64,000 nt of DNA from assembly GCA_947446815.1 (NCBI GenBank), contig CANFGT010000007.1, forward strand, positions 1-64,000, in the 5' to 3' direction. Each line of letters opens with the position of its first letter. Position 1 is the stretch's first letter. The position numbers were made by a program, and so were the translations under genes. Below the pieces are notes generated by a model. The model was given only the letters and a program-made list of their open reading frames with translations. It searched no databases and was not told the origin of the DNA. This stretch comes from Acidimicrobiaceae bacterium. GTDB taxonomy: Bacteria > Actinomycetota > Acidimicrobiia > Acidimicrobiales > Ilumatobacteraceae. Shown here piece by piece: positions 5,438 through 37,958 of the stretch.

Positions 5438-6184
5438 TCAAGCGTCTCGCTTCATAAAGAGTGAAGCACCGACCACTGCAAAGACTGCAACAAAACCGGC
5501 GAAGAGCAACGCAGACACATTCCAAGAGTTGTAGTCATCAAAGCGGAATTCTGAGACCAACTGAAAACCGTTTTGAATGGGTGCCCAACGGAAGAAGTTG
5601 TGAGTTGTTGCGGCAGATAACAGCCCAAACACCATGCTTTCAGCGATTGTTGGCCACAACAGCGTTGCAGAAATAGCTCCAGGGCCACTCTTAAAAATCA
5701 GTCCAAGCGAAAAGCCAAAGAGTGCCACGACGGCCGTAAGTACAAAGAACGACAGCAATACCCGAGCATCGTTACCAATTAGTTCAAACTGCACGCCTCG
5801 TACCTTCAACACAATCACTGTTGCAATCAAGCTGAGGCCAATGAGCACTGCAGTGGAGAAAACAGCGATGTAGAGAGTTGTCAGCAGCTTTGCGAAGTAG
5901 ACACGCTGACGATTGGGAGTCGCCACCAAAGTGATTCGAATAGTTCCTTGGGAGTATTCCTGCGTTGCACACATCACACCAATGACGCCCAGAAGTAAAG
6001 CAACAAGAGGCGCACCGGATGCGATATTCACAACTGCAGGCGAACCCATTTCGCCCCCATCAAATCCATAGATCAAGGTCAACACGTAGATCACAACGGG
6101 AAGTAAAACTGCAAAACCTAAGAGAACCTTTGTTGCTCTCGTCGTTGTCATCTTGAAGAGCTCGGAACGAAAAGTACGCAACAT
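5438..6184 (-). CDS. ABC-2 type transporter permease
   Basis: Membrane half of an exporter. The 248-residue protein has about six hydrophobic segments: one near residues 20-40, one after SGAPLVALLLG, then the long helices of the central core, ending in FMKRDA. The motif CATQEYSQGTIRITLVATPNR is typical for ABC-2 permeases partnered with DrrA/BcrA-like ATPases. Its ATG overlaps the ATPase stop (TGATG), showing translational coupling. The substrate is unknown; relatives move antibiotics, lipids or polysaccharides. It ends four bases from the convergent TetR gene. Confidence 0.9.
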   Translation of the reverse strand: MLRTFRSELFKMTTTRATKVLLGFAVLLPVVIYVLTLIYGFDGGEMGSPAVVNIASGAPLVALLLGVIGVMCATQEYSQGTIRITLVATPNRQRVYFAKLLTTLYIAVFSTAVLIGLSLIATVIVLKVRGVQFELIGNDARVLLSFFVLTAVVALFGFSLGLIFKSGPGAISATLLWPTIAESMVFGLLSAATTHNFFRWAPIQNGFQLVSEFRFDDYNSWNVSALLFAGFVAVFAVVGASLFMKRDA

Positions 6185-7113
6185 CACTGACCTCTTCCAT
6201 TGTGAGAAACAGCAGATTCTCCACGAAACTCCACCGATGCATCCGTGGCATCAAGGAAAGCTTCTTCAAGGGAACCTGTTTGTGGCGAAAGTTCATACAA
6301 CACGATGTTGTTCGCAGCGGCAATTTCGCCAATCTGAATTGCAGTCACTGCGTGGAAGTCTCCACCTTCATTCGTGCGTTCCACTGTGCCACCTTGTGCG
6401 ATAACCAATGCTGCCAACGCATCAAACTGTGGCGATACAACCCGAACCCATGTTTTGGCATGTTGCGACATGAACTGAGAAATAGGCCCAGCAGAGATGA
6501 GCTTGCCTTGACCAATCACGATGAGGTCATCAGCAACCATTGAAAGCTCTACCAATTGGTGGCTGCTGACAAGGACGGAGCGTCCAGCATCAGCGAGACT
6601 GCGCATCACCTCACGCGTCCAACGAATACCTTCCGGATCAAGACCATTCGCAGGCTCATCCAGAATGACCGTTTGTGGATTGCCCAGAAGGGCAACTGCA
6701 AGACCAAGACGTTGACGCATACCGAGGGAGAACTTGCCCACTTTGGTCTTGGCAACTTCACTCATACCCACTTGGTGCAACACCTCATCGACACGACTCT
6801 CAGGGAAACCATGAGTCATTGCGATCCATCGCAGATGATTGCGAGCGCTTCTTCCCTTATGCGCATCGCCTGCATCAAGCAGTGAGCCCACATGCGTGAG
6901 TGGCTGGTCCAGTTCGCTGTACCTCTTGCCATCAAATGTGACGGACCCTATGTCTGCAGCGTCAAGGCCCAACATGCATCGCATGGTGGTGCTCTTTCCA
7001 GAACCATTTGGCCCAAGGAATCCGGTGACGCGTCCGGGGCTCACAGTAAAGGAAAGGTCATCGACCGCCTTCTTAGCCCCGTAGGTCTTTGTCAATCGGT
7101 CGACAACAATCAT
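6184..7113 (-). CDS. ABC transporter ATP-binding protein
   Basis: ATPase that drives the adjacent ABC-2 permease. Walker A GPNGSGKST is at residues 34-42, the signature is FSLGMRQRLGLA, Walker B is TVILDEPANGLDPEG, and the H-loop is SSHQL. The C-terminal extension of about 90 residues is typical of DrrA/BcrA exporters. The start lies 27 bases after the methyltransferase that closes the nuo1 run, so read-through from nuo1 is possible, although a functional link is not evident. Confidence 0.93.
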   Translation of the reverse strand: MIVVDRLTKTYGAKKAVDDLSFTVSPGRVTGFLGPNGSGKSTTMRCMLGLDAADIGSVTFDGKRYSELDQPLTHVGSLLDAGDAHKGRSARNHLRWIAMTHGFPESRVDEVLHQVGMSEVAKTKVGKFSLGMRQRLGLAVALLGNPQTVILDEPANGLDPEGIRWTREVMRSLADAGRSVLVSSHQLVELSMVADDLIVIGQGKLISAGPISQFMSQHAKTWVRVVSPQFDALAALVIAQGGTVERTNEGGDFHAVTAIQIGEIAAANNIVLYELSPQTGSLEEAFLDATDASVEFRGESAVSHNGRGQ

Positions 7114-7140: not shown

Positions 7141-8187
7141 CTAGTTATTCCACTGTAAAACGGTGAAATTCCCGAGCCCTGTGGGGTCAAGAAGGGCTTC
7201 AGATTCGCTGATACGACTGCGCATTTTCATTGCGGTCAAGGTGGGTGATGCTGCCGATTCTTCCCAGATACGACGGCCTTCATCTACCAATTCGTCAATG
7301 CCCCACAACTGCAGGAATTGAGACTGGCTACGCACGGCATCGGGTTCACGCACTGCTGCAAGTTGATCAATACACACTTGTGTCGTGATGTCCTGCTCCC
7401 CCGCATTGCGCAGGTAGTGAACTCCACGTTCGTGGCCGGCATACGTACGCAGCCATTCACGCCATGGCATTGATGCGACTTCCGCCGTTAGTGACGTGCA
7501 GTAATCAAATGCAATGAGGCTTCCATGCTGTAGTCGAGACAGAGCATCGGCTAACCATGAAACAGCTGCAGTGTGCACTGGTGCACGTGAACCGTGCGGC
7601 ACTCGTGATGGCAGACAACTAGGCACTTCGCTTGATCGAAGGATCTCTGCGAACCCGTCACCTTGTTCAATGATGTGCGATTCGCGCCAGCCATCATCAA
7701 AGACCCAGAGTTCAAATGGAAGGTTGTCGAACAATTCGTTCGCAATGATGACGCCGAATTCAATCTCTGTGGGCATCACTGCGGTACTAGTGATTCCTTC
7801 TGGATGAGACTCACGTTGCGATGCAGAAACTTCTACTGCGATGTATTCACCATTGGCGAGACACTTCGGTTGTGCGGCAAGGATGGACCGAGCCAATGTT
7901 CCTGGTCCAGCACCTACTTCAACAATCGTGAAGCTCTCTGGTGATCCCAACTTGGTCCACACGTTGTCGATAGCGGTAGCCAACACTTGACCAAACAATG
8001 GGCCGACTTCTGGAGACGTGAGGAAATCACCGCGGCGACCAGCACGACCGGAACTTGTGTAGAAACCATCTTCTCCATACAACGCAAGTTGCATGAAATG
8101 CGCAAATGGAATGGAACCGCCAGCTGCAGTAATTGCAGCGCGAATGGAGTTACTTAATGAATGCACCGGTGAGACCGGCAATGTCAC
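7141..8187 (-). CDS. MidA/NDUFAF7-family SAM-dependent methyltransferase
   Basis: Class I methyltransferase of the family (Methyltransf_28) whose mitochondrial member NDUFAF7 dimethylates an Arg of the complex I 49-kDa subunit (NuoD) and is needed for assembly. Visible family marks are IPFAHFMQLALYG, RRGDFLTSPEVGPLFG, the SAM loop VEVGAGPGTLA and the later IIANELFDNLPFE. The 348-residue length is normal. The 5' end overlaps nuoN1 by 38 bases, so it is the twelfth gene of the nuo1 operon. GTG8187 or the in-frame GTG8166 could be the start. The placement directly behind complex I genes supports a role in NuoD1 maturation; NuoD1 keeps the target Arg (residue 69). The function is inferred from family and context. 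Confidence 0.85.
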   Translation of the reverse strand: MTLPVSPVHSLSNSIRAAITAAGGSIPFAHFMQLALYGEDGFYTSSGRAGRRGDFLTSPEVGPLFGQVLATAIDNVWTKLGSPESFTIVEVGAGPGTLARSILAAQPKCLANGEYIAVEVSASQRESHPEGITSTAVMPTEIEFGVIIANELFDNLPFELWVFDDGWRESHIIEQGDGFAEILRSSEVPSCLPSRVPHGSRAPVHTAAVSWLADALSRLQHGSLIAFDYCTSLTAEVASMPWREWLRTYAGHERGVHYLRNAGEQDITTQVCIDQLAAVREPDAVRSQSQFLQLWGIDELVDEGRRIWEESAASPTLTAMKMRSRISESEALLDPTGLGNFTVLQWNN

Positions 8188-9655
8188 CGAAGTGAATCAC
8201 GATGCCGGGGAATGTTCCCAACACCAATGTGGAGATGCTTGTGATGCCAAGAGCAACGCCCAAAGACGAGTACACCGTGACTGGTGTTGTGTCGCCGTCC
8301 GGGACTGGCTTCATCCACATCTCACGAAGGATCTTGCCGTAGTAACCGAATGCCACTGCAGAGTTGATACCGCCGATGATGGCGAGAACATACGACCACG
8401 TGGTTCCAGCAGAAACAAGTGACTGGAATGCGGTGAACTTACCGAACCAACCACCAAATGGTGGGATACCAGCGAGTGACGCCATGAACATTGTCATGAG
8501 AGTTGCGATGCCTGGCGCGTACGAGAAAAGTCCGCCGTAGGAGGAGATCTCACCGCTACGAGTCTTGCGTGCAACGACCATCACGATGGCGAAGACGCCG
8601 AGGTTGGTTGCTGCGTAGACCAAGAGATAAGTCACGACTGAACGCAATGCAGAGTTAGCTACACCGTCCACACCCGCAACAGCAAGTGGCATGAGGATGA
8701 ATCCACCCTGTGCAATGGACGAGTAGGCCAACATGCGAACAATGTTTGTCTGCTTGAGTGCGAGGAAGTTACCGACAGTCATCGTGAGCGCCGAAAGAAT
8801 CCAGAACACTGGCTGCCACACGTCATGTGAACCTGGGAACGCGACAAATACAACCGTGACCAGGGCAACGAAGCCTGCAGCCTTTGATGCGACTGACAAG
8901 AACGCAGTAACAGGAGTTGGTGCACCTTGGTATGTATCGGGTGCCCATGTGTGGAATGGAACAGCTGACACCTTGAAGGCAAAACCAACGACGATGAAGA
9001 ACACTGCAAGCGCACGCAAAGACGTGAGGTCAGAGCCGAGATACGTTGCGATTTCGACCAACTTGGTGGAACCAGTGATGCCATACAACAACGACATGCC
9101 GTACAGCATGAGTGCGGAAGCAAAGACGCCAAGCAGGTAGTACTTCATGCCGGCTTCATTGCTGCGAAGGTCGCGCTTGCGCCATGCAGCCATCATGTAC
9201 GCAGGAATAGACAACAATTCAAGCGATACGAAGATGGACACCATGTCACGGCTGGAAGCCATCATCACCATGCCTAAGAGGCTGGTGAGCAATAAGAACC
9301 AGTATTCACCTTGGTAGTAATCACCTTCACGCAGATGATCAGCAGTGAGAAGGATGACGACGTACCCGGCAAGAAGGAACAAACCCTTCATCACCAAGCT
9401 GAAATCATCCACCATGTAACGACCATCAAACAGTGAGCGAACTCCCTGATTGCTGAGAGCAAGGGTGAGAACTGGGATGAAGGCACCGAGCACCGTGAAC
9501 GATGCAAGTGGCGTCAGCACCCACTTCTTCGCATCAGGTAGGAAGAGGTCGAGGAGAAGGAGCAGCACGATGCCACCCCCGAGAATGATCTCGGGAGCAA
9601 GCGCGTGGTAATCGATTGACGGCGAAGTCCACGCCGTGGCCAGTGCGCTCAACAC
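8150..9655 (-). CDS. nuoN: Complex I subunit NuoN (nuo1 copy)
   Basis: Antiporter-like membrane subunit of the proton-pumping arm. 501 residues with about 14 hydrophobic segments. It carries the family signatures SLELLSIPAYMMAAW (conserved Glu), KVSAVPFHTWAPDTYQGAPTPVTAFLS and AYSSIAQGG. The start is GTG9655, four bases after the nuoM1 stop; no ATG fits better. It is the last Nuo subunit of the first cluster and overlaps the MidA-type methyltransferase. Confidence 0.95.
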   Translation of the reverse strand: MLSALATAWTSPSIDYHALAPEIILGGGIVLLLLLDLFLPDAKKWVLTPLASFTVLGAFIPVLTLALSNQGVRSLFDGRYMVDDFSLVMKGLFLLAGYVVILLTADHLREGDYYQGEYWFLLLTSLLGMVMMASSRDMVSIFVSLELLSIPAYMMAAWRKRDLRSNEAGMKYYLLGVFASALMLYGMSLLYGITGSTKLVEIATYLGSDLTSLRALAVFFIVVGFAFKVSAVPFHTWAPDTYQGAPTPVTAFLSVASKAAGFVALVTVVFVAFPGSHDVWQPVFWILSALTMTVGNFLALKQTNIVRMLAYSSIAQGGFILMPLAVAGVDGVANSALRSVVTYLLVYAATNLGVFAIVMVVARKTRSGEISSYGGLFSYAPGIATLMTMFMASLAGIPPFGGWFGKFTAFQSLVSAGTTWSYVLAIIGGINSAVAFGYYGKILREMWMKPVPDGDTTPVTVYSSLGVALGITSISTLVLGTFPGIVIHFGDIAGLTGAFIK

Positions 9656-9658
9656 GGA

Positions 9659-11203
9659 TCAGCCTCCGAAAGCCTTGAGGGTCACGCCCACTGCGGGGTC
9701 GAGAATCTTGAACATCAGTTGTGGGTAAACACCGAAGACAACGATTGCAATCAGCAATGGTGTCCATGCCATCCACTCAAACTTGTTGACGTCGTGAATG
9801 TCTTCGTCGTGACCATGACCAGCAGCGAACTCTGCAGTGGGCTCACCGAATGCGGTGCGCTGGTAGAGCCACAAGAGGTAACCAGCTGCAAGCACGGTGC
9901 CGACTGCTGCGATAACCATAAAGATGCGGAAGACCTGAACATTGAGACCTGCTGCTGGCTGGTAGGCCGACATGATTGCGGGGAACTCACCCCAGAATCC
10001 TGCAAGACCTGGAAGACCAAGTGATGCCATTGCACAGAATCCAAGAATCCATCCGAGTTTTGGCATTTGCACCAACATGCCTGAAAGACGCTTGATCTCA
10101 AGTGTGTGGTAGCGCTCTTTCACAGAACCCGCCACGAAGAACAACATGCCGGTAATGAGACCATGCGCAACCATTCCGAACATCGCAGCGTTCATACCGA
10201 ACGACGTGAGTGTTGAAATACCGAGCATGACATAACCCATGTGAGCAACAGACGAGAAAGCGATAAGGCGCTTCATGTCCGTCTGTGCGAGACATCCGAG
10301 TGCACCGTAGATAATGCCGATGACTGCAAGAAGACCAATCCATGGAGCCCATGCTTTTGCAGCGAGCGGAAGGATTGGAATCGCAATGCGAACGAAACCG
10401 TAGGTACCAAGCTTCAACAAGATGGCGGCCAGAATGACCGAACCCTGTGTTGGTGCTTGTGTGTGCGCATCAGGCAACCAGGTGTGGAATGGGAACATCG
10501 GAACCTTGACGGCAAAGCCCACGAACATTCCGGCAAAGATCCAGATCTGAGTGTTCTTAGGAATCATCGCATTTGCATGAGCGATGAGATCTGGAATTGC
10601 GAAGCTTGCTCCACCTGTCTTCCAGAACAATGCAAGGAACGCAACAAGCATGAGTGCTGATCCGAACATTGTGTAGAGGAAGAACTTGAGCGATGCGTAC
10701 TGGCGATTCTCGCCACCCCAGACACCAATCATGAAGTACATCGGCAACAACACGAGTTCGAAGAACACGAAGAAGAGAACAAGGTCGCGAGCGATGAATG
10801 TTCCGGCCATACCTGTCTGGAGAACCAGCATGAGGATGAAGAATGCCTTTGCATTGCCTGGCGAAGGAACGTGGTTCCAGCTGTAGATCATGACGAGCAA
10901 CGTGATGACCATTGAGAGGAAGTACAACGGCAAGCTGATGCCGTCGAGTCCGATGTAGTACGTCGACTTGATGACTGAGATCCAGTCATGTCGTGCAACA
11001 AACTGCATCTCCCCTGCTTTGTCAAAGTTGAACTGAGTCAACGTGTACACGCCGACTGCCAACGTTGCCGTTGCGGTGCCGATGGCGACTGCCTTCGACA
11101 GCGCCTCGTCTGCCTTCGGAATGAAGAGCATGATGAGGACACCAACAAGCGGCAAGAACGTGCCGACTGTCAGTACCCAATTGTGGTCGCTGAGGACTTC
11201 CAT
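9659..11203 (-). CDS. nuoM: Complex I subunit NuoM (nuo1 copy)
   Basis: Antiporter-like proton-pumping subunit, 514 residues. Family motifs are FFVFFELVLLPMYFMIGVWG, KVPMFPFHTWLPDAHTQAPTQGSVILA and AYSSVAHMG-like IAFSSVAHMGYV. A small His/Asp-rich segment, AGHGHDEDIHD, sits near the C-terminus before the last helices, echoing the much larger one in NuoL1. Preceded by the Shine-Dalgarno sequence AAGGGAG. Part of the operon nuoABCDHIJKLMN-midA. Confidence 0.95.
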   Translation of the reverse strand: MEVLSDHNWVLTVGTFLPLVGVLIMLFIPKADEALSKAVAIGTATATLAVGVYTLTQFNFDKAGEMQFVARHDWISVIKSTYYIGLDGISLPLYFLSMVITLLVMIYSWNHVPSPGNAKAFFILMLVLQTGMAGTFIARDLVLFFVFFELVLLPMYFMIGVWGGENRQYASLKFFLYTMFGSALMLVAFLALFWKTGGASFAIPDLIAHANAMIPKNTQIWIFAGMFVGFAVKVPMFPFHTWLPDAHTQAPTQGSVILAAILLKLGTYGFVRIAIPILPLAAKAWAPWIGLLAVIGIIYGALGCLAQTDMKRLIAFSSVAHMGYVMLGISTLTSFGMNAAMFGMVAHGLITGMLFFVAGSVKERYHTLEIKRLSGMLVQMPKLGWILGFCAMASLGLPGLAGFWGEFPAIMSAYQPAAGLNVQVFRIFMVIAAVGTVLAAGYLLWLYQRTAFGEPTAEFAAGHGHDEDIHDVNKFEWMAWTPLLIAIVVFGVYPQLMFKILDPAVGVTLKAFGG

Positions 11204-11217
11204 GCTGAGTAGCTCCC

Positions 11218-13734
11218 TTAGAAGTTGATGATGACGAGTACGAGTGCACCGATGGCGGCAGCGCCGAACAACAATGCACCGTATTGGTTGACTTTTCCGG
11301 ACTGAACGGGTTGCAATGCACCACCAGCATTCTCAGCTGTTGTACCTGCTCCGTTCACCGCTCCGTCAACCAATTTCTGGTCGACGTTGCGGTAGACCCA
11401 ACCGGCAACGGTCTTGGTGCAGATACCTGCGCCATTCACGATGCCGTCGAGGACGTTCTGATTGAACCAATACGCAGCGCGAGCAATTGGATGCGCGATG
11501 GATCGGACAATGATTTTTTCGTAGAGAGTGTCAAGGAAGTACTTGTTCTCGAGGAACAAGTATCCGGCACCCAGAAGTTTGTTGCGCTTGGTGAGACCAA
11601 CAAGCTTCTTGTTCTTACGGTCGTACAACTGAACACACAGCAACCAGCTGAGAAGCATGCCTGCGAACACGATGATCATTGACATTGCAGCCTTTGACCA
11701 CTTGAACGGTGCATGGTGCAACTGCGGTGCGTAACAAACGCCGTGTTCTGGTGTTTCAGTACCGCATGGAGATTCATGCATAGCTTCGCCTTCAGCGCCA
11801 ACAACCTCAGCAGACTTTTCGTCATACATTGGCATTGGCTCTTCGCCATCAGCAACGGGCTCTTCAGAAACAACTTCACCATCGACAGGAACGACTGAAT
11901 CGCTGGATACAGCGGCGTCTGGAGCAGGAACTGTTGTATCGGTGGTGCCTTCTGCAATGCGAGCTTCGCCTGCGCCACCTGTAGGTGCAGGAATACCTGT
12001 GATGCTCACGACTTCTGCGCGAGGCTCCACCCACTTCTTGAAGTTCTCCCACTTCTCACCAAATGGTGCGGCATTCAAGAAGCCAGAACCAATGGCGAGC
12101 GTGGCCAAGATAATCAAAGGAATAGTGATGATGCGACCGGACTCGCGAGGTCCGTGTGAACCATGGTCGTCGTGCGAGTCATGTGCGTGTGCATCATGTG
12201 AATCGTGAGCATGATCGTCATGACCGTGATCATCATGTGCTGCAGGGGTGTCATGACCGTGCTCTTCTTCATGGTGCTCGCCAGCAGCAGCGCCACGTGG
12301 CTCACCAAAGAATGTGAGGTACGTCGCGCGAGTCATATACGCAGCAGTAAGGAATGCACCGGACAAACCGATGATCATGAAGAACGTATAACCGTTATGG
12401 CCAACGTTGTCGATGATTTCATCCTTCGAGAAGAAACCAGAGAATGGGAACACGCCACACAGAGCGAGCGTGGAAAGAATCCATGTTGCAAAGGTGATCG
12501 GCATGAACTTGCGAAGACCACCCATGTCTTTCTTCATGTCGAACGAGTGGTGTGATGCGCTATGGCTGATGGAGCCAGCACCGAGGAACAAACAAGCCTT
12601 GAAGAATGCGTGAGTGAAGATGTGGAACACTGCGGGCAACCACGCACCAGCGCCGAGACCCATCATCATGTAACCCAACTGCGAAACGGTTGAGTATGCG
12701 AGCACCTTCTTGATGTCGGTCTGCACAAACGCCAACGCGGCAGCGATGACAATGGTGATGCCACCAATCAGAACAATGAAGTTCAAACTGGTTCCCATGA
12801 TGTTCATTCCCTTGAAGAACACGGGATACAGACGAGCGACCAAGAACACACCAGCCACGACCATGGTGGATGAGTGCAAGAGCGAGCTGACTGGTGTTGG
12901 ACCGGCCATTGCGTCGGGCAACCAGGTGTGCAGTGGGAACTGACCCGACTTACCGATACAAGCGATAAACAGAGCAACAGCACCAACGGTGATTGCTGCA
13001 TGCCCAGGGTGACCCGAGAGTGCCCAGGCGGACAAGCCGCGGATGCTGAAACCAGAAACGCCGAGGTTCTTCTGTGTCCAATCGTTGGCAGAGAAGAACA
13101 AGACTGACGTTCCGACAAGAAGTCCGATGTCGCCGGTACGTGTGGTGAAGAACGCCTTCAGCGCAGCGCGGCTGTTTGCGCCCTCTTCCCACCAGTGACC
13201 GATGAGCATGAAGGAACACAGGCCCATGATTTCCCATCCGAGGATGAGTTGAATCATGTTTTCTGCAACAACCATGTTGAGCATGCCTGCTGAGAACAGC
13301 GTGAGCGATGCGAAGAAATGGGTATAACGACGATCGCCATGCAAGTACTCAGTGGAGTAAATCTGCACCAAAGAAGAGATGAACGCAACGACACACAAGA
13401 TGGTGATGGAGAGTCCATCAATATGTTGACCAATGCCGAATGAGAATCCGTTGTTCTGCCACCATGTCCAGGTCTTGATGACTGGCTTGATGTAGGCCTC
13501 TTCTGGCGCACCGTTGACACGCTGGATCCACTGATACGCAGCGCCAGCCGACATGGCCAACGCACCGAACATGGAAAGAATGCCGAATTCGGAACCCTTC
13601 ATTGGCATCTTCTTGCCGAAGAAAATAATGAGCGCAAAAGCAATCGCTGGAATCAGCGGGATGATGTATGCGTGCTCGAGGAACCAACCTGACTTCAAGA
13701 TGACCTCGGTTGCTTCAGTAACTGCAGAGAACAT
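11218..13734 (-). CDS. nuoL: Complex I subunit NuoL (nuo1 copy), long form with His/Asp-rich insert
   Basis: Distal antiporter-like subunit with the lateral helix. At 838 residues it is about 200 longer than its nuo2 paralogue (636). The core is ordinary, with GWEIMGLCSFMLIGHWW, KSGQFPLHTWLPDAMAGPTPVSSLLHSSTMV and AYSTVSQLGYMMMG. The extra length is a segment at about residues 482-525 with 15 His among Asp, Glu and Ala, followed by a Pro/acidic stretch (about 560-650) containing two Cys. These insertions lie after the FFGEP loop, where NuoL2 also has a few His. The insert is probably soluble and metal-binding, but that is inference. The ATG lies three bases after the nuoK1 stop. Confidence 0.95.
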   Translation of the reverse strand: MFSAVTEATEVILKSGWFLEHAYIIPLIPAIAFALIIFFGKKMPMKGSEFGILSMFGALAMSAGAAYQWIQRVNGAPEEAYIKPVIKTWTWWQNNGFSFGIGQHIDGLSITILCVVAFISSLVQIYSTEYLHGDRRYTHFFASLTLFSAGMLNMVVAENMIQLILGWEIMGLCSFMLIGHWWEEGANSRAALKAFFTTRTGDIGLLVGTSVLFFSANDWTQKNLGVSGFSIRGLSAWALSGHPGHAAITVGAVALFIACIGKSGQFPLHTWLPDAMAGPTPVSSLLHSSTMVVAGVFLVARLYPVFFKGMNIMGTSLNFIVLIGGITIVIAAALAFVQTDIKKVLAYSTVSQLGYMMMGLGAGAWLPAVFHIFTHAFFKACLFLGAGSISHSASHHSFDMKKDMGGLRKFMPITFATWILSTLALCGVFPFSGFFSKDEIIDNVGHNGYTFFMIIGLSGAFLTAAYMTRATYLTFFGEPRGAAAGEHHEEEHGHDTPAAHDDHGHDDHAHDSHDAHAHDSHDDHGSHGPRESGRIITIPLIILATLAIGSGFLNAAPFGEKWENFKKWVEPRAEVVSITGIPAPTGGAGEARIAEGTTDTTVPAPDAAVSSDSVVPVDGEVVSEEPVADGEEPMPMYDEKSAEVVGAEGEAMHESPCGTETPEHGVCYAPQLHHAPFKWSKAAMSMIIVFAGMLLSWLLCVQLYDRKNKKLVGLTKRNKLLGAGYLFLENKYFLDTLYEKIIVRSIAHPIARAAYWFNQNVLDGIVNGAGICTKTVAGWVYRNVDQKLVDGAVNGAGTTAENAGGALQPVQSGKVNQYGALLFGAAAIGALVLVIINF

Positions 13735-13737
13735 GGA

Positions 13738-14037
13738 TTAGCCCTTCATCTCTGAAAGTTCGTCAAGACCAACGGAACGACGGTTGCGGTACATCAACAA
13801 CACCATTGCGAGACCAACGCCAACTTCGGCAGCAGCAACAGCAATGACGTAGAGAGCAAACGTGTGTCCATCAACTGAGTTATTACGCAACGAGAACGCC
13901 AACAAGTTGATGTTGACGGAGTTGAGAATGAGCTCGATGGACATGAGAACAAGCACAGCGTTCTTGCGAACAATGACGCCATAGACGCCGATGCAGAAAA
14001 GAACTGCGCCAAGCATGAGGAACTCGTTAAGCAACAT
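13738..14037 (-). CDS. nuoK: Complex I subunit NuoK (nuo1 copy)
   Basis: Three-helix membrane subunit of 99 residues, the usual size. It carries the conserved Glu in SIELILNSVNINLLAFS and a second Glu in AAAEVGVGLAMVLLMYRNR, both part of the proton path. The start ATG14037 is set by the Shine-Dalgarno sequence GAGGAGGG just upstream; the frame extends further but without similarity. Two bases separate it from nuoJ1. Confidence 0.95.
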   Translation of the reverse strand: MLLNEFLMLGAVLFCIGVYGVIVRKNAVLVLMSIELILNSVNINLLAFSLRNNSVDGHTFALYVIAVAAAEVGVGLAMVLLMYRNRRSVGLDELSEMKG

Positions 14038-14039
14038 AG

Positions 14040-14552
14040 TTAGTCCCTCCTCGCGAGCACGATGGCTCCGATTGCTGCAGCAAGCAACACAAATGACAAT
14101 GCCCAAAATGGCAAGAGGTAGGCGCCGAAGATCTGGTCGGACACCTGTTGGGTGGTGACAACAGGAGCGTCGACAGGCAACTTCTCTGCCTTAAAGCCAT
14201 CATTCAATGCCATGAGCATTGTTGCCAACAACAAAACTGCGATGGGCAAGCCAATAAACCAGTTCTTGTTGTTGAGATCTTGTTCTGCGCCAATTCGTGC
14301 ACGCGTGAGCATCGTTCCGAAAAGGAATAACACCATCACTGCGCCGATGTAGACCATGACTTGGGTGATGGCAACGAACTCTGCTGCAAGCAATACATAC
14401 TGAGCAGCAGCGCCGGCGAGCACTACAACTAGCCACAGTGCAGCATGCACAACATTCTTAGTGGTGACGACACGCAAGGCACCGACGACCATGATGGCGG
14501 CGATGATCGCAAAGCCCACGTTCTGGGCGACGAGCACATCGGAAGCGAGCAT
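14040..14552 (-). CDS. nuoJ: Complex I subunit NuoJ (nuo1 copy)
   Basis: Membrane subunit with about five helices; 170 residues. The conserved stretch AAEFVAITQVMVYIGAVMVLFLF, including the pi-bulge helix, identifies it. The ATG at 14552 overlaps the nuoI1 stop (TGATG), showing coupling. Confidence 0.94.
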   Translation of the reverse strand: MLASDVLVAQNVGFAIIAAIMVVGALRVVTTKNVVHAALWLVVVLAGAAAQYVLLAAEFVAITQVMVYIGAVMVLFLFGTMLTRARIGAEQDLNNKNWFIGLPIAVLLLATMLMALNDGFKAEKLPVDAPVVTTQQVSDQIFGAYLLPFWALSFVLLAAAIGAIVLARRD

Positions 14553-15049
14553 CACTTCTTGCCCTTCTTTTCTGCGCCAGCTTCAAGCTCTGGTGCTTCA
14601 GGCACGGTCTGCATCCATTCACCAAGCTTTGACTTGTCATGAAGCAAGTCAGCAATTCGTGTTTCGGAGTATTCGTATTCAGGGCTCCAGAAGAGCGCAT
14701 CAAACGGACACACTTCAACGCAGATACCGCAGTACATGCACAGTGCATAGTCGATGTCGAAACGATCAAGCTTGTTCACCTTGCGAGCTGCGCCACCGGC
14801 GCGACGAGGTGGGGCAAGTTCCTTGTGGCCTTCGATATAGATGCACCAGTCGGGACAAGAACGCACACACAACATGCACGAGGTGCAGTTGCCTTCGTGC
14901 AATGCAATAACACCGCGTGCACGAATAGGAGGAGTCTCCTTTTCGTGTGGGTACTGAACGGTGTCCGCACCATTTTTTGCAGTCGCCAAGAGAGTGGCGA
15001 ATGTGACACCAAGACCCTTGAACATGCCGGGAACTTTTGGCTTAGCCAT
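14552..15049 (-). CDS. nuoI: Complex I subunit NuoI (nuo1 copy), 2[4Fe-4S] protein
   Basis: Peripheral-arm subunit that carries clusters N6a and N6b. 165 residues. Both CxxCxxCxxxC motifs are intact: [12 protein letters not shown] and [12 protein letters not shown]. The start ATG15049 overlaps the nuoH1 stop. In a complex without NuoEFG this subunit would be one of the few routes by which electrons can enter toward NuoB, so it is the likely docking surface for a ferredoxin-like donor (inference). Confidence 0.95.
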
Positions 15050-16113
15050 CAGAAAGCCACCTTCAGAACAGCAGTCAACATGATGTTGACAAGCGAAATT
15101 GGAATGAGCACTTTCCATGCGAAGCGCTGTAATTGATCCTCACGCAAGCGCGGGGAAGAGAAGCGGATCCACATAATGAAGAAAACAAGGGCCATCATCT
15201 TGGCGAACAAAATGAGCGGTCCGGCAACATTCATCCAGTTATCAATGCTGTCGATGGTTGTCCAACCGAACCATGAGAACGGAACGCCCCAACCACCAAG
15301 GAAAAGAACCGATGCAATCATCGCGAAGACACCTGCTGTTGCAAACTCACCGATGAAGAAGATCAGGAAGCGGAAACCTGAATACTCCGTCATGTAGCCA
15401 GACACAAGTTCGGATTCCGCGATGGGCATGTCGAACGGAGTTTGTGAGAGTTCTGCCTGCACAGAAATCATGAAGATAAGGAAAGCAACGAACTGAGTGA
15501 GTACGTATGGGTTGCCTAGGCCATCCCAGCCGAACATCGAACCCGCGTTCTGCGCAACAACGATTTCCTGAAGGTTCATCGTGCCTGCCTGAATGACAAC
15601 ACCAATCACTGCGAGAACCATGGGGAGCTCGTACGCAACAAGCTGACCAGCAGCGCGCAAGCCACCCAACAAGGAGTACTTGTTTGCACTGGACCAACCT
15701 GCGATGAGAATGCCCAACACGGAAACTGACGACACTGCGAGTGCGTAGAAGATTCCCGTTTCGAAGTTGGTGAACCATGCATCGGGTCCGAATGGAACAA
15801 CAACAACCAACAGGAAGGTGCTTGCCAACACGATGAGCGGTGCCATCTTGAAGATGCGAGCTTCAGGCTGAGCGCTAGCAGGAACAATGTCCTCCTTCTG
15901 CAGCCACTTGCCCACTTCGGCAAACAACTGCATCGATCCGTATGGACCAGCTTCCATTGGGCCGAGACGTGACTGCATGAACGACAACATCTTGAAAAGG
16001 AACAAGTAAACGACGGTGCCCGCAGGGAGCAACACAGCCACGAGTCCACCCAAGACGCGAAGAAGCGAGATCGCCCAGTATGGAAGATCAGCGGAAAGAA
16101 GAACAGCATTCAT
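15049..16113 (-). CDS. nuoH: Complex I subunit NuoH (nuo1 copy)
   Basis: Membrane subunit that forms the quinone channel with NuoB and NuoD; 354 residues, eight helices. Family motifs are [42 protein letters not shown] and [22 protein letters not shown]. The acidic residues of the E-channel region are present. The ATG overlaps the nuoD1 stop by one base. Confidence 0.95.
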
Positions 16114-17285
16114 CAGCGATCAATGTCTCCGAGAATGAAATACAGCGACGCAAGGATGGTGATGATGTCAGGGACATACACACCCTTCAACAACCAAGGA
16201 ACAATCGAGATGTTGTTGAACGAAGCGCTGCGAATCTTGACGCGGAATGGACCTTGGTCACCTTGAGAGACAACGTAATAACCCATCTCGCCGAGTGGGT
16301 TCTCCGTTGATACCCATGCTTCGCCTTCAGGAACCTTGATGATCTTTGGAACCTTGGCCATCACTGGACCAGCAGGAATCGTGTCGAGAAGTTGATCAAC
16401 GATCTTTGTTGACTCACGCACTTCCTGCAGGCGAACCCAGCAACGTGCGAACGAGTCGCCGTCTGGGTGCGTGATGACTTTGAACTCTGTCTTGTTCCAG
16501 GCCATTGGGATGTCCTGGTCACGACGAAGATCCCAGTCGACTCCGCTTGCACGAAGGTTTGCGCCGGACAAGCCGTATGACAAGGCAACGTCTTTTGGAA
16601 TGACACCGATACCGCGGGTACGGGCTTGGAAGATTTCGTTTCCGAACAAGAGGTCTTCAATCTGATCGCAGAATGTGCGCAACTTCTTCATGACAACACG
16701 CGTCTCGTCAATGAAGCCAGCTGGCAAGTCGTCCTTCAATCCACCGATGCGGTCGAAGTTCGGGTGGAAGCGTCCACCGGTTGCAGCCTCGATGAGGTTC
16801 AGAACATATTCACGGTCACGGAATGCGAAGAACACTGGAGTGATTGCACCCAGCTGCACACCGAGGTCACCAAGGAATAGGGACACGTTTGCGATGCGAG
16901 AGAGCTCGAACAAGATGGTGCGAATGTGCTGCGCACGTGATGGCGCTTCGACACCCATCAGTTTTTCTGCAGCGAGAATAAATGGCACTTCGTTTGCAAA
17001 CGAACCCAACCAGTCGATGCGGTTAACCAACGCAGTGACTTGCGGGAATGTGCGAACTTCTGTGAGCTTTTCGTAACCGCGGTGCATGTAACCGGCAGAT
17101 GGTTCTGCCCACACCACTTGCTCACCATCAAGGCGGGCAATGATGCGCAGTGTTCCGTGAGTTGCAGGGTGCTGCGGTCCGATGTTGAGGGTCATGCCCT
17201 CGGTTTCAAGTTCTACGTTGACACGAGCATCAGCTGCTTGCGCAGCGATGTATGCAAGTTGTTGACGGTCGCCAAGCATGGTCAT
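16113..17285 (-). CDS. nuoD: Complex I subunit NuoD (nuo1 copy) with altered quinone site
   Basis: Catalytic-core subunit that shapes the quinone-reduction site next to cluster N2; 390 residues. GPQHPATHG keeps the quinone-site His (His43, bovine His59). Two key positions differ from nuo2. Arg69 in YMHRGYEKL matches the Arg that NDUFAF7 methylates in mammals, where NuoD2 has Thr. Trp92 in NRIDWLGSF replaces the quinone-head-group Tyr (bovine Tyr108), where NuoD2 has Tyr. The spacing between the two positions is 23 residues in NuoD1, NuoD2 and human NDUFS2, so the alignment needs no gap. The C-terminus ends FILGDIDR instead of the usual GEVDR. ATGA overlap with nuoC1. Confidence 0.95.
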
Positions 17286-17965
17286 GATGCTTCGCCTTCC
17301 TCTGAATCATCACCAGGCAATGGCTCAACATCAACGATGCCTGGCCATGGCTTGACAATGCGTGCAAGCAACGGGAAGTCCTTGCGCATTGGGTGGCCTT
17401 CGAAATCTGATGGGAGATACATGTTGCGTAAATCAGGATGACCGTTAAAGCCAATCCCGAACATTTCATGTGCTTCGCGCTCGTGCCAGTTAGCACCAGC
17501 GAAAACACTGGACCAAGAATCAACTGCCATCACTGCATCGTCGACGTCAACTTTGATGTTGATGCCGAGAGTGGTGAACGGCTGTACCAAACGTGCAAAT
17601 ACTTGGAAGCGTGTTTCGCCACCGGCGTATCCCTGCTTGATAGTGGTTGAACGCTCAACTGGTGGTGCTGTTGGGTCGTCCTCGCCTTTACCAAATGGCG
17701 AAGGAAGCCAGTCGATTACTGACAAGAAACCAAAGTACGTGAAACCAAGAGACTTCAATGTCTCGCCTGTTGCACGCCATGACTCTGCGGTCACGCGAAT
17801 CCAGATGTCATCGTTTGGCTTCAACAAAGAGTCGACGACATTTGCACCGAGTGCTTCAAGAACTCGTGCAAGCGCTTCTTCGCGAACGGTGTCGCGTGGA
17901 GCTTCGGTTGGGGTATCAGTTGTTGACGACAACGGGGACACCACCCTTCTCTGCTGATTCGCCAT
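17282..17965 (-). CDS. nuoC: Complex I subunit NuoC (nuo1 copy)
   Basis: Peripheral-arm 30-kDa subunit; about 227 residues. The signature is [39 protein letters not shown]. The N-terminal 30 residues are not conserved and overlap the end of nuoB1 by about 50 bases, so the start could be ATG17965 or a downstream GTG (17944 or 17941). The acidic C-terminal tail reaches nuoD1. Confidence 0.92.
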
Positions 17966-18473
17966 CGACAACATTCATTGGCTTGGTGCCTTCACCGCGC
18001 CAGCGTGCACCCATGTCTTCGTTCTTAATGCGTTGTTGCAATAAAACAATTCCTTCAAGCAAGGCTTCGGGACGTGGTGGGCAACCTGGGACGTACACGT
18101 CAACAGGAATGATTTGATCCACACCCTTTGTCACTGAGTAACTGTCCCAATACGGACCGCCGCAGTTTGCGCAGCTACCCATTGAGATCACGTACTTCGG
18201 CTCTGGCATCTGCTCGTACAAACGCTTGATAGCAGGAGCCATCTTGTCGGTGACAGTGCCAGAGATAACAACAAGGTCTGCTTGACGTGGTGATGCAGGC
18301 AAGGGGATAACACCCAAACGCATCACGTCATAACGAGGTGAACCGAAGGCTGCACCCATTTCAATAGCGCAACATGCAAGACCCCACTGGTACACCCACA
18401 GGGAGTACGAGCGTCCCATGTTAAAGAGTGTTGTGAGTGGCTTTGGAAGCCGACCGCGATCAACAAGTCCCAT
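17916..18473 (-). CDS. nuoB: Complex I subunit NuoB (nuo1 copy)
   Basis: Binds the terminal cluster N2 that reduces quinone; 185 residues. The four ligand cysteines are Cys34, Cys35, Cys101 and Cys131 ([27 protein letters not shown]). An additional Cys104 in [10 protein letters not shown] is absent from NuoB2, which has VCASSGGMF there. The C-terminal tail after the core is extended by about 40 residues. Confidence 0.95.
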
Positions 18474-18491
18474 AATCGAAGAACCTTTTCC

Positions 18492-18857
18492 CTATACCCA
18501 GCGCAGGACGCCCTTGCGCCACGCATAGACAAGACCAAGCAGAAGAATGGCAACGAAGATGCCCATCTCTACAAGTCCGAATCCGGCGTAACGCTCGAGT
18601 TGAGTAGCCCACGGGAAGATAAACACAGCTTCAACGTCAAAGATGACGAAGAGAAGCGCGAAGACGTAATAACGAATCTGACTTTGCGACCAACCATCGC
18701 CAACAGGATCCACACCACTTTCGTAGGTGAGCATCTTTTCTCTGTTGGGCTTGTTGGGGCGGATGAGTGCAGAGATACCCAGCAATAATCCAGCGACTAA
18801 AAATGCGGCAAGTCCAAACCACACAACAGTGAGATAGGACCGTAGAAACGGAGACAT
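18492..18857 (-). CDS. nuoA: Complex I subunit NuoA (nuo1 copy)
   Basis: Three-helix membrane subunit; 121 residues. YESGVDPVG and FALLFVIFDVEAVFIFPW are the family marks. The start ATG18857 is chosen because the hexamer TAGTTT (18871 to 18866 on this strand) ends 8 bases upstream, as for other leaderless genes here; the frame extends upstream without similarity. First gene of nuo1, 53 bases after an amidotransferase gene on the same strand. Confidence 0.93.
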   Translation of the reverse strand: MSPFLRSYLTVVWFGLAAFLVAGLLLGISALIRPNKPNREKMLTYESGVDPVGDGWSQSQIRYYVFALLFVIFDVEAVFIFPWATQLERYAGFGLVEMGIFVAILLLGLVYAWRKGVLRWV

Positions 18858-18865
18858 CGCTTTTG

Positions 18866-18871
18866 AAACTA
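18866..18871 (-). promoter_or_regulatory. -10 element TAGTTT for leaderless nuo1 operon
   Basis: TANNNT hexamer ending 8 bases before ATG18857, in the short gap after the amidotransferase gene. It suggests that the 11-subunit operon is transcribed from its own promoter. Confidence 0.5.
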
Positions 18872-18910
18872 CTACGGGGCCCCATTGCGCCCCCAACTTC
18901 ACTTGCGAAT

Positions 18911-19618
18911 TCAGTCGTTCGGCATGTGCCTTTGTGCGACATCAGCCAGAAACCAGCCGACTAATTCGTCACATCGACGCTCAGAATCATCCTGATATAG
19001 CCGGGTGGTTGTCAGCAGTTCCTCACGATCAATCCCCTGAGCAACTAGCTCTTCGACTCCTTCATCTGAAGACCACATCCGCACGATGGTTTCGGTGGCT
19101 TCCGGATGAAATTGCAGCCCCAGAGACCGCCCACAGACAATCGCCTGAGGGCCCGCTAGGGACTGGGCAAGGGGTGTGGCGCCCGTTGGCACCGTGAAAC
19201 TGTCGTAATGCCACTGCATCCACGGGCCTTGAAAGAGGGTTTTAGGTGCCAAATGAGCTGTTTCTGAGAGATTTTCGACCGAAAACCACCCGATTTCGGT
19301 ACTTTGTGCTTTTGTGACGGCCCCACCGAGGACGGTAGCCAGCTGCTGGCCACCGAAACAGATGCCCAAGATGGGGATACCCCGAACGATGGCCTCACGT
19401 ATCAGGGCCTGCTCGGCCTGCACCGGTTCCGCCACATGGTCCCAGTAGGTACTCCACCCCGACCCCATCGCGACAACGAGATCAAAGCCATCAAGGCTTG
19501 GCCACTCGTGGAACTGCTCTCGCAAGAAATCAGTGAACCCATACCCCCGACGGCGAAGGGACCGACCGACAAAACCAGGGTCTGCTTCATTCGTATTCAC
19601 GACAAGGGCTGCGCGCAT
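18911..19618 (-). CDS. Class I glutamine amidotransferase domain protein
   Basis: Stand-alone GATase1-fold protein of 235 residues. The nucleophile elbow GICFGGQQLA carries the Cys, and the His-Glu pair is in GLQFHPEAT. Members of this group act as amidases or transferases with unknown acceptors, sometimes called GMP-synthase-like. The N-terminus (RAALVVNTNEADPGFVGRSL) is usual for the type. Divergent from ilvA: the two start codons are 20 bases apart and the -10 hexamers overlap. It precedes nuo1 by 53 bases. Confidence 0.87.
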   Translation of the reverse strand: MRAALVVNTNEADPGFVGRSLRRRGYGFTDFLREQFHEWPSLDGFDLVVAMGSGWSTYWDHVAEPVQAEQALIREAIVRGIPILGICFGGQQLATVLGGAVTKAQSTEIGWFSVENLSETAHLAPKTLFQGPWMQWHYDSFTVPTGATPLAQSLAGPQAIVCGRSLGLQFHPEATETIVRMWSSDEGVEELVAQGIDREELLTTTRLYQDDSERRCDELVGWFLADVAQRHMPND

Positions 19619-32960: not shown

Positions 32961-34189
32961 TAGAAGCTTGCTCCGTCCTTCTCACGATTGGCGCGACTCA
33001 CACGGTGCGCCAATTGCAACAACACATATCCGAGGATGAGAACAACTGCCGTCACCAACGTGACCACGATTTGATCCCATCCAGCATCACGACCGACACG
33101 CTGTGCAGCCAACAACATGAACCAACCAAGAGACGCTGGAATCAACACGCGCCAACCGAGGTCCATCAACTGGTCGTATCGGAAACGCGGAAGCGTTGCA
33201 CGGAACCACACATAGATATAGAGGAAGACCAAAACCTTGAGGATTAACCACACCGTTCCTTCAATTCCGTTTGGAATGAGAGGAATGTCAAGCGTGGTGT
33301 TACCAATCGAGATGGGCTGAGGTCCACCGAAGAACAGTGTGACGATGAGCGCCGACATTGTGATCGTGTTCATGAACTCTGCGAGGAAAAACAGAGCGAA
33401 ACGAATCGATGAGTACTCAGTGTTGAATCCACCTACAAGTTCTTGCTCTGCTTCGACCAAGTCGAATGGTGGGCGATTCATTTCAGCAGTGGCGGAAATG
33501 AGGAAGATGAAGAACGGTATGAAACCCGTTGCTACAACGTTCCAGTTGCCAACAGATGACTGCATGTTGACGATGCCAGCTGTGGACAATGTGCCCGAGA
33601 CCAACAGAACCGCCGCCAACGACAAGCCCAATGCTGCTTCGTACGACACCATCTGTGCAGATGCACGAACTGATCCAAGCAATGGATACTTTGATCCACT
33701 TGACCAGCCAGCCAACATGATGCCGTACACCGCGATGGAAGAAATTGCGAGTGCGAACAGCACGCCAACTGGTGGATCAGCTAATTGCAAACGTGTTTGA
33801 TGTCCGAACAAGGTGACAATGCCGGCTTTGCCATTGCGGAAGTCTCCGCCCAAAGGGATGATGGCAAACGCGAGGAAAGCTGGAACAAGTGCCAAGTACG
33901 GCGCGAGGCGGAAGACAAAACGGTCAGCACGATCCGGAAGTAGGTCTTCTTTGAAAAAGAGTTTGGTTCCGTCTGCGAGAGTCTGCAACAAGCCCCATGG
34001 GCCTGCCTTGTTTGGACCAACGCGGTTCTGCATGCCCGCAATGACCTTGCGTTCAAACCAGACCATCAACATGGTGGCAACGAGACCAACAACGAAGACC
34101 ACCAAGACTTTGATGACGATGATGAACAGTGGTGTCCACAACAGACCGCCATCTAGAAGTGGATCAATTGCAAACAATGACGACATCAC
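32960..34189 (-). CDS. nuoH: Complex I subunit NuoH (nuo2 copy)
   Basis: Quinone-channel membrane subunit, 409 residues. Motifs are [43 protein letters not shown] and [24 protein letters not shown]. Compared with NuoH1 it has a longer N-terminal helix and a charged C-terminal tail. ATGA overlap with nuoG. Confidence 0.95.
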
Positions 34190-36555: not shown

Positions 36556-37958
36556 TGGGCAACCGCCGTCACAGGGATAAGCGTGCGCTTCGTCACGCGA
36601 GCTTCGAACTCTTCACGGAACAATGTGAGTGCTGAGTGCACTGGTGCATATGCCGATGGTCCAACGAAACAAATGGTGTTCATGCGGTATGGGAACGGCA
36701 CAGCAGTAATACCGAGTTTCTCGTTAGATGCATGAGGGAATGCGCCGGGGCAGATCGATTCGCCCACTTCAAACATCTGGTCGAGGTCTGCATCGGTTCC
36801 CTTGCCATCGACGACACGAGACAAGATGCGCTCCAACCAAGTGCCACCTTCACGACAGGGCGTGCACTTTCCGCACGACTCATGTGCATAAAAACGCGTG
36901 AGAGTGAGTGCTGCGCGAGGAATATCCGTTGTGGAATCCATCACCATGATTGCGCCCGAGCCAAGCATTGAACCTGCAGGTCCCACTTGACTTGCTTCAA
37001 AAGGAAGATCAAGTTGATCGGGTGTGAACCATGGAGCAGAACCGCCACCAGGAACAAACGCCTTCAGTTCATTTCCGTTACGAATGCCTTGGCAGAACTC
37101 TTCTCCGTACAACAAGTCACGGAATGTGGTGATGCCGTTGATGATTTCGTATACACCTGGACGCTTGACATGACCCGACACGGCGACCATACGCGTGCCA
37201 GGTGATGTTGCTGTTCCGATTGCTGTGTACGCCTCAGCACCATTGCGCAACAACCACGGAAGGTTGGCCAAGGTTTCAACATTGTTCACGATGGTCGGCT
37301 GACCATACAGACCAATTGCGGCGGGGAAATACGGAGGCTTCAGACGCGGCATGCCACGGTTGCCTTCAAGACTTTCAATCAACGCAGTTTCTTCACCGAC
37401 GACATACGCGCCTGCACCCCAGTGCAACACGATGTCGACAGAAAACTTTGAACCGAGAATGTTCTTGCCTACATAACCAGCGGCGTATGCCTCATTTAGC
37501 GCTGTAGCAATACGCTCCTGCGCAAGTGCCATTTCACCACGGACGTAGAGGAAGCACTGTGAAAGACCAGCGGCATAACAAGCGATGAGGCAACCCTCGA
37601 TGAGTTGATGCGGATCGCGCTCCATGAGCAAGCGGTCCTTATAAGTGCCTGGCTCTGATTCGTCACCATTGACAACGAGGTAACGCGGCCAAACACCTTG
37701 AGGCGTGAGTCCCCATTTGTTACCTGCAGGGAAACCAGCACCACCACGACCAAGAACTGTCGCGTTCTTTACTTCGTCGTGTACTTCAGTAGCAGGACGA
37801 CCAAGTGCCGCGCGCAATCCGGAGTAACCATCTGTGGCGAGGTATCGCTGCAGTGTGTATGAGTCTTCGTATTCGAAACGTGATGTCACGATGCGTGGGC
37901 GATCACCTTCAATAAAGCCAGGTGCGTGTGGCCATGTGCCACCAGGATTGCTGGTCAT
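36552..37958 (-). CDS. nuoF: Complex I subunit NuoF (NADH- and FMN-binding)
   Basis: Oxidises NADH with FMN; 468 residues. GRGGAGFPAGNKWG is the FMN/NADH glycine-rich loop, NGDESEPGTYKDR is the NADH site, and ESCGKCTPCREGG plus a later Cys bind cluster N3. It overlaps nuoE and nuoG by four bases each. It marks nuo2 as the NADH-dependent complex. Confidence 0.97.
   Translation of the reverse strand: MTSNPGGTWPHAPGFIEGDRPRIVTSRFEYEDSYTLQRYLATDGYSGLRAALGRPATEVHDEVKNATVLGRGGAGFPAGNKWGLTPQGVWPRYLVVNGDESEPGTYKDRLLMERDPHQLIEGCLIACYAAGLSQCFLYVRGEMALAQERIATALNEAYAAGYVGKNILGSKFSVDIVLHWGAGAYVVGEETALIESLEGNRGMPRLKPPYFPAAIGLYGQPTIVNNVETLANLPWLLRNGAEAYTAIGTATSPGTRMVAVSGHVKRPGVYEIINGITTFRDLLYGEEFCQGIRNGNELKAFVPGGGSAPWFTPDQLDLPFEASQVGPAGSMLGSGAIMVMDSTTDIPRAALTLTRFYAHESCGKCTPCREGGTWLERILSRVVDGKGTDADLDQMFEVGESICPGAFPHASNEKLGITAVPFPYRMNTICFVGPSAYAPVHSALTLFREEFEARVTKRTLIPVTAVAQ

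Follow-up and report, generated by a model that had tools for sequence, protein, structure and literature searches.

The stretch of DNA considered here is a window of 64,000 nucleotides (contig CANFGT010000007.1, positions 1 to 64,000, of assembly GCA_947446815.1) from an Acidimicrobiaceae bacterium of the Ilumatobacteraceae, class Acidimicrobiia, and our subject is midA, a predicted methyltransferase gene of the NDUFAF7 type, and its relation to respiratory complex I. Twelve closely spaced genes on the minus strand form a single run from 18902 down to 7141, in the order nuoA1, nuoB1, nuoC1, nuoD1, nuoH1, nuoI1, nuoJ1, nuoK1, nuoL1, nuoM1, nuoN1 and, last, midA. The first eleven, within 8150-18902, were identified by Pfam as subunits A, B, C, D, H, I, J, K, L, M and N of an 11-subunit complex I. 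Pfam matches to NuoE, NuoF and NuoG were absent from the open reading frames (ORFs) of this run, and the ORFs are packed so closely that no space is left for them. A second nuo cluster, from 26435 to about 41450, encodes a 14-subunit complex and by Pfam includes nuoD2, nuoE, nuoF and nuoG. The 49-kDa subunit is accordingly encoded twice, by nuoD1 (16113-17285, minus strand; PF00346, 264.8 bits) and by nuoD2 (38569-39972, minus strand; PF00346, 383.9 bits).

The midA gene (7141-8187, minus strand) encodes a protein of 348 amino acids belonging to the NDUFAF7/COG1565 family of S-adenosylmethionine (SAM) methyltransferases. The protein matches PF02636 with 99.2 bits (curated cut-off 23.3; expectation value 3.4e-28) and is the sole match to that family in the assembly (completeness 90.85%). 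Sequence relatives of solved structure include 4f3n (COG1565), 1zkd and 5ztz, the Dictyostelium NDUFAF7 homologue (expectation value 3.1e-11). The fold, predicted with a local distance difference test score (pLDDT) of 90.5, has 4f3n, 5zu0, 4g67, 5ztz and 1zkd as its top structures at template modelling (TM) scores of 0.74-0.80, with 0.78-0.80 for 5zu0 and 5ztz and 0.36 for the next match. GxGxG and NE..DN are invariant across 14 homologues, and we take GxGxG and NE..D to be residues of the SAM fold. What a first-pass annotation of this DNA had observed, that an NDUFAF7-type methyltransferase gene is linked to the NuoD that bears the target Arg, is confirmed.

The same annotation had midA overlapping nuoN1 (8150-9655, minus strand; PF00361, 235.3 bits), the last subunit gene of the 11-subunit complex. 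This is correct if translation begins at the GTG at 8187, which lies 38 nt inside nuoN1, the stop codon of which ends at 8150, and a GTG at 8166 would still overlap; an ATG at 8094, in contrast, would leave a gap of 55 nt. Since no clear Shine-Dalgarno sequence precedes any of the three candidate starts, the overlap is probable rather than certain. The close succession of nuoN1 and midA holds whichever start is used.

In NuoD1 the putative target residue is Arg69, encoded by the CGC codon at 17079-17081 (minus strand) and lying, just as first reported, in YMHRGYEKL; it aligns without gaps to position 64 of Thermus Nqo4 (2fug and 4hea, chain 4), so that MidA and a 49-kDa subunit with the target Arg are present in the same cell. 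A degenerate DNA motif for the HRGYEK site occurs once in the window, with 0.00 occurrences expected from 100 shuffles. NuoD2 instead has Thr in YLHTGMEK (codon ACG, 39613-39615). Counted from the TTG start adopted here this residue is Thr120; the earlier Thr96 presumes a later one. The partner subunits differ in the reciprocal sense. NuoB1 (17916-18473, minus strand; PF01058, 105.8 bits) has Thr73 in GTVTDKMAP where Thermus Nqo6 has Arg83, and NuoB2 (40403-40984, minus strand; PF01058, 98.5 bits) has an Arg in GRVSQKMAP; Arg69 of NuoD1 is thus paired with Thr73 of NuoB1, and the Thr of NuoD2 with Arg83 of NuoB2. The same exchange is described between Yarrowia, with NDUFS2-R121 and NDUFS7-T122, and Thermus, with Thr in Nqo4 and R83 in Nqo6: the Arg swaps subunit and the side chains fill the same space (PMC8042128). 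By that account the Arg that NuoD1 was said to "keep" is the common state of complex I; the Thr of NuoD2 resembles the Thermus state, and an Arg in NuoB2 compensates for it. The switch is known as a difference between species (PMC8042128), whereas here both states occur in one genome and a methyltransferase gene is linked to one side only.

The pattern extends to relatives. Residues at the switch sites were counted over distinct proteins in fetched DNA, each assigned to a class by best match and read by alignment, with matches below 180 bits dropped. Arg occupies the site in 140 of 146 NuoD1-class proteins (the remaining six being unreadable there), and the 40 NuoD2-class proteins divide into 34 with Thr and six with Arg; Thr is found in 87 of 88 NuoB1-class proteins (one unreadable) and Arg in 32/32 of the NuoB2 class. 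A NuoB with Thr at locus L257, seemingly among those dropped at 170 bits, adjoins an Arg-type NuoD and fits the switch, as does E. coli, where Thr in NuoB is paired with an Arg-type NuoCD.

Complex I of Paracoccus denitrificans was found by measurement in 2013 to carry symmetric dimethylation of the equivalent Arg, as did the bovine, human and Pichia enzymes (PMC3750175), NDUFAF7 methylates exactly this Arg in human cells (PMC3829151), and the chemistry is further supported by PMC9006661. The suggestion that arginine methylation of complex I exists in bacteria is consequently not new, given the measurement in P. denitrificans, and we reject it as a novelty. With Nqo4 of that organism the present system shares a bacterial complex I and the same Arg, which in Paracoccus was shown to be modified; it differs in that the available text mentions no paralogue contrast for Paracoccus (PMC3750175), and in that the complex here is an 11-subunit form without NuoEFG. 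MidA resembles the NDUFAF7/MidA proteins of human and Dictyostelium in family, in fold and in the HRGxEK substrate position of the 49-kDa subunit (NDUFS2 Arg85), and differs in that the predicted enzyme is encoded beside its putative NuoD, and that the cell has another complex I, the NuoD of which has no such Arg. The Ca. Actinomarinales presumably belong to the same class as the organism of the window. Their 11-subunit nuo cluster is likewise an EFG-less second cluster in marine Actinobacteria, though MidA, the Arg and the Trp described below are not mentioned in the portion of the report at hand (PMC7771536).

We consider it likely that the 11-subunit complex I has in MidA its own dedicated arginine methyltransferase, which methylates Arg69 of NuoD1 during assembly. 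By analogy with human and Dictyostelium NDUFAF7/MidA, from which we infer what the enzyme does, where it acts, what it produces and how it serves assembly, MidA would recognise newly made NuoD1 and methylate Arg69, presumably to the symmetric dimethyl form, before or as NuoD1 joins NuoB1, at a time when their interface with cluster N2 is still open. The counterpart of Arg69 packs against N2 at the NuoD-NuoB interface in mitochondrial complex I, and methylation of Arg69 may help N2 and the quinone (Q) module to assemble. Arg69 is suggested as the target by the homologues and by the retention of the Arg where the Gly that follows it is lost. On NuoD2 MidA would be unable to act at this site, where Thr stands because the Arg comes from across the interface, from NuoB2; a Thr-type complex should therefore offer MidA no site. 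If this is correct, cells with both an Arg-type and a Thr-type complex provide an internal control, in which loss of midA should harm one complex and spare the other.

The first-pass annotation had staked its reading on a correlation across genomes between midA linkage and the Arg, and such a correlation was found. Among 198 genomes of the organism's own class, PF02636 is matched in 166 and PF00346 in 196, and the Arg motif is present in 169 and the Thr motif in 182, absence meaning that a genome does not appear in a match table in which genomes without a match have no row. MidA and the Arg motif occur together in 159 genomes and are both lacking in 22, with ten Arg-only and seven MidA-only cases (Fisher 8e-16, a value that ignores kinship). 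Within the organism's own order (63 genomes) 42 have both and 20 neither; the single Arg-only genome has a contig that ends before the place of midA, and no genome is MidA-only. Contig ends explain, or are compatible with, 14 of the 17 mismatches in the class. In eight of the Arg-only genomes (G039, G025, G081, G096, G112, G186, G188 and G021) the contig stops before the midA place, and G107 offers 14.9 kb where its family relative G030 has midA 15.5 kb away. Of the MidA-only genomes, G040, G154 and G160 have a nuoD1 cut off before the motif, G144 consists at this place of a 4-kb contig with nuoN1 and midA, and G163, in which no NuoD1 was found, has midA at a contig start. A search for NuoD1 in ten of the 22 genomes without both found none, and the other 12 each have a single PF00346 match. 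Extra PF00346 matches in MidA-less genomes were considered as hidden NuoD1 proteins and rejected, being only 24-30% identical to the NuoD proteins of the window; they are probably hydrogenases.

As to linkage in the class, among the matches listed, which cover 129 of the 159 genomes with both genes, 96 have both on one contig, and midA lies downstream on the same strand in 96/96, at no more than 12 kb in 85 and at 12.5-58 kb in 11. The 80 nearest midA loci in named genomes are mostly titled Ilumatobacteraceae, Acidimicrobiales or Actinomycetota. In 77 of them nuoN1 precedes midA at a distance of no more than 1.5 kb, in 73 of these within 100 nt or overlapping; in the other three, two contigs end and L153 has nuoN1 about 7 kb upstream. 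Forty-five of the 77 loci include nuoD1, with HRGYEK in 42 and fragments in three. Four records (L114, L124, L171 and L186) are titled Bifidobacterium breve or Acidobacteria; their midA loci are Ilumatobacteraceae-like at 52-73% identity and the records are probably mislabelled metagenome-assembled genomes.

Beyond the class, two further sets were surveyed: 197 genomes of the phylum, 18 of them of the own class, and 246 genomes of a second actinobacterial class around genome G363. The three surveys share some genomes, and the genomes are related, so their counts are not independent. In the phylum set MidA is found in 62 genomes, the Arg pattern in 83 and both in 52. Variants in which the Arg has different neighbours escaped the initial DNA pattern, and such cases were re-read from fetched DNA: among the ten MidA genomes without the pattern, six of family f57, all of them read, have HRAAEK, G353 has HRSVEK and G237 has HRSLEK, with Arg in every one. 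In the second class 67 genomes have both, three are Arg-only, 17 are MidA-only and 159 have neither. In 64 of the 67 the two genes are within 12 kb (at most 11.6), 47 on the same strand and 17 on opposite strands, and in three they lie on different contigs. In 16 of the 17 MidA-only genomes the DNA fetched around midA (up to 19 kb) includes an Arg-type nuoD, missed because the residues before the His differ or the Gly is lost. Among the three Arg-only genomes G471 has midA beside nuoD and G473 a piece of midA at a contig end; PF02636 is weak in this class, and it missed G471. Arg is retained although the next Gly is lost in HRAAEK, HRSAER, HRSVEK and HRSLEK.

The arrangement in this wider set narrows the partner of midA. 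Where genomes measure 7-10 Mb, and likewise in families f56 and f57, nuoD1 adjoins midA, and no other nuo gene was matched in most of the fetched stretches (L272-L278, L280 and L284-L286; L279 also has a nuoC frame). In four genomes (G219, G363, G242 and G203) nuoD1 and midA stand side by side, and a nuo operon at another place runs from nuoC1 straight on to nuoH1, NuoD being unmatched in the interval (L332, L333, L334 and L335). This operon shows A, B, C, H, I, J, L, M and N in G219 and G363, K not having been queried; the stretch of G242 ends in L and the contig of G203 after I. A whole-genome NuoD search of G363, G242 and G203 (G219 was not part of it) found no other NuoD1. These data are strong grounds for regarding midA as tied to nuoD rather than to the operon as a whole, and NuoD1 as its likely partner; the pairing points to NuoD as the partner of MidA in bacteria. 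No description of midA beside nuoD was found among the top matches of a search confined to open-access literature. The proposal that methylation is paralogue-specific is well supported as a prediction, midA being linked to the Arg-type NuoD across the actinobacterial surveys in more than one gene arrangement, and the first-pass interpretation as a whole is partly supported. In G253 (L276, L336), which has a nuoD1-midA pair, the second NuoH match is only 30% identical and no second complex I is evident.

Several observations weigh against a dedicated methyltransferase for Arg69. Three genomes of the own class are unexplained: G192 and G165 have MidA, yet a NuoD1 was found in neither, and in G165 no NuoD of any kind; G170 has a NuoD1 for which no MidA was found. 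As for the second class, the stretch of G425 stops at the contig end and includes no Arg-type nuoD, and G470 has no midA in 19 kb. Close linkage is not universal: outside the own class 47 phylum genomes have MidA, and in about 20 of these 10 kb or less separates the two genes; in the others they lie far apart or on different contigs, or an Arg-type NuoD is lacking. Among the 62 MidA-bearing genomes of the phylum set, G279 (two MidA copies; L330, L331) and G376 have MidA and only a Thr-type NuoD was found. Conversely, the Arg pattern occurs without MidA in 31 phylum genomes, comprising 13 with GYMHRGFEK and no PF02636 match, nine with GF(V/I)HRGLEK, taken for hydrogenases by the motif, and nine others that include the contig end of G039, G218, and G257 with two other Arg motifs and no MidA. 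In the five GYMHRGFEK genomes read (G207, G320, G206, G244 and G274) the Arg nuoD lies in nuo operons, and loci L322-L326 (f88, f59, f60 and f81), from genomes without a PF02636 match, are nuo operons with an HRGFEK NuoD1, showing nuoA to nuoN in L324 and L325 (K not queried) and cut by stretch or contig in the others. Fourteen control genomes, taken to be the same set for both families, include three with PF02636 (Caulobacter, Synechococcus and Haloferax) and 11 with PF00346, E. coli and Thermus among them; E. coli has an Arg-type NuoD and no PF02636 match, in keeping with its Arg, which is present and unmodified (PMC3750175). That the Arg implies MidA is rejected by E. coli and by the 13 GYMHRGFEK genomes, and Arg alone does not predict methylation. 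Finally, no NuoD1 that could be read at this site has anything but Arg, so that by NuoD1 alone MidA tracking the Arg is inseparable from MidA tracking the NuoD1 lineage. MidA also occurs with Arg-type NuoD of different make-up, such as that of G225, which has HRGMEK in a cluster with nuoF and nuoG, and these cases (G225, G353 and G237) may help a little to separate the two. In G218, NuoD1 survives in pieces (C2:5-601 and C1:1408757-1409364), one of them with stop codons, and there is no PF02636 match, which may reflect joint decay of the pair.

Since the Arg is retained without MidA, it has a role of its own, and the alternative that survives best, unlikely as we hold it to be, builds on this: MidA would be an assembly chaperone of NuoD1, or would methylate another NuoD1 residue or another subunit of the 11-subunit complex, with Arg69 conserved for a structural role near N2. 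The GYMHRGFEK genomes and E. coli suit this explanation (PMC3750175), and linkage does not name a residue. Against it stand the four genomes described above that keep midA beside nuoD with the neighbouring operon genes elsewhere, which disfavour a target in another subunit, the SAM-fold motifs intact across the 14 homologues, and the action of NDUFAF7 on exactly this Arg (PMC3829151). We regard it as very improbable that the linkage reflects operon hitchhiking or inherited synteny with no functional tie to NuoD1. The nuoN1-midA order within Acidimicrobiia does look like one inherited arrangement, but in other families the arrangements vary (in tandem, on opposite strands, or nuoD standing apart with midA), and the four f30 genomes that were read (G013, G034, G154 and G160) do not have midA next to nuoN1, yet MidA and the Arg motif are both present in 15/19 of that family. 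Presence and absence are moreover joint in mixed families: the 24 genomes of f108 comprise ten with both, 14 with neither and none discordant, and the 20 of f115 one with both and 19 with neither. Equally implausible is service to the other complex or to a substrate outside complex I, to which G279 and G376 would lend themselves, because family f4 of the own order, with the Thr motif in 13/13 genomes and the Arg motif in 0/13, has no MidA, and Thr cannot be arginine-methylated.

One feature of NuoD1 was unexpected. Trp92 (codon 17010-17012, minus strand) aligns without gaps to Tyr87 of Nqo4, the counterpart of Yarrowia Tyr144 (PMC8042128), a quinone ligand (NDUFS2 Tyr144) that a review calls strictly conserved (PMC8119997). 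Arg is combined with Trp in 139 of 140 NuoD1-class proteins in which both sites are readable, the single Arg/Tyr protein being from L287, whose cluster also has nuoF and nuoG; the NuoD2 class has Tyr in 40/40. Six distinct HRGFEK proteins, chosen by motif, also have Trp, five from MidA-less genomes and one from a genome with MidA (G235, L222), so the Trp is not tied to MidA. NuoB1 in turn has Pro (LPASPRQ against FRASPRQ), as have those of its relatives whose motif was displayed, at the position of the Arg known to be hydroxylated in PSST (PMC3750175). A search of open-access literature found no description among its top matches of Trp at the place of the quinone Tyr. It is conceivable, and we propose it only tentatively, that the 11-subunit complex has a rebuilt quinone site, with a methylated Arg in NuoD1, Trp for Tyr and Pro in NuoB, which might manage the reduction of its acceptor in the absence of a Tyr deemed essential by current mechanisms, or might employ a different acceptor, with MidA tuning N2 for this chemistry; nuoD1 and midA might then be, in some actinobacteria, a two-gene cassette that completes a nuoD-less operon. 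A Trp in place of a Tyr held to be strictly conserved would put current models of quinone reduction to the test.

The remaining genes of the 11-subunit run, all on the minus strand, are nuoA1, its first (18492-18902; PF00507, 124.6 bits), nuoC1 (17282-17974; PF00329, 102.5 bits), nuoH1 (15049-16113; PF00146, 322.5 bits), nuoI1 (14552-15118; 4Fe-4S domains, with a start perhaps nearer 15049), nuoJ1 (14040-14555; PF00499, 125.4 bits), nuoK1 (13738-14106; PF00420, 95.1 bits, with an uncertain start and an ATG at about 14040), nuoL1 (11218-13734; PF00361, 244 bits, and PF00662) and nuoM1 (9659-11203; PF00361, 265.1 bits, and PF01059). In the second cluster Pfam places nuoE at 37955-38569, nuoF at 36552-37958 and nuoG at 34186-36555. 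A class I glutamine amidotransferase gene (18911-19618, minus strand) ends 8 nt before nuoA1, and L062 has the same neighbour. At the other end, an ATP-binding cassette (ABC) transporter ATPase gene (5438-7113, minus strand) begins 27 nt after midA and is followed by a membrane protein gene; both may share the midA transcript, and an ABC gene also lies 3' of midA in L123.

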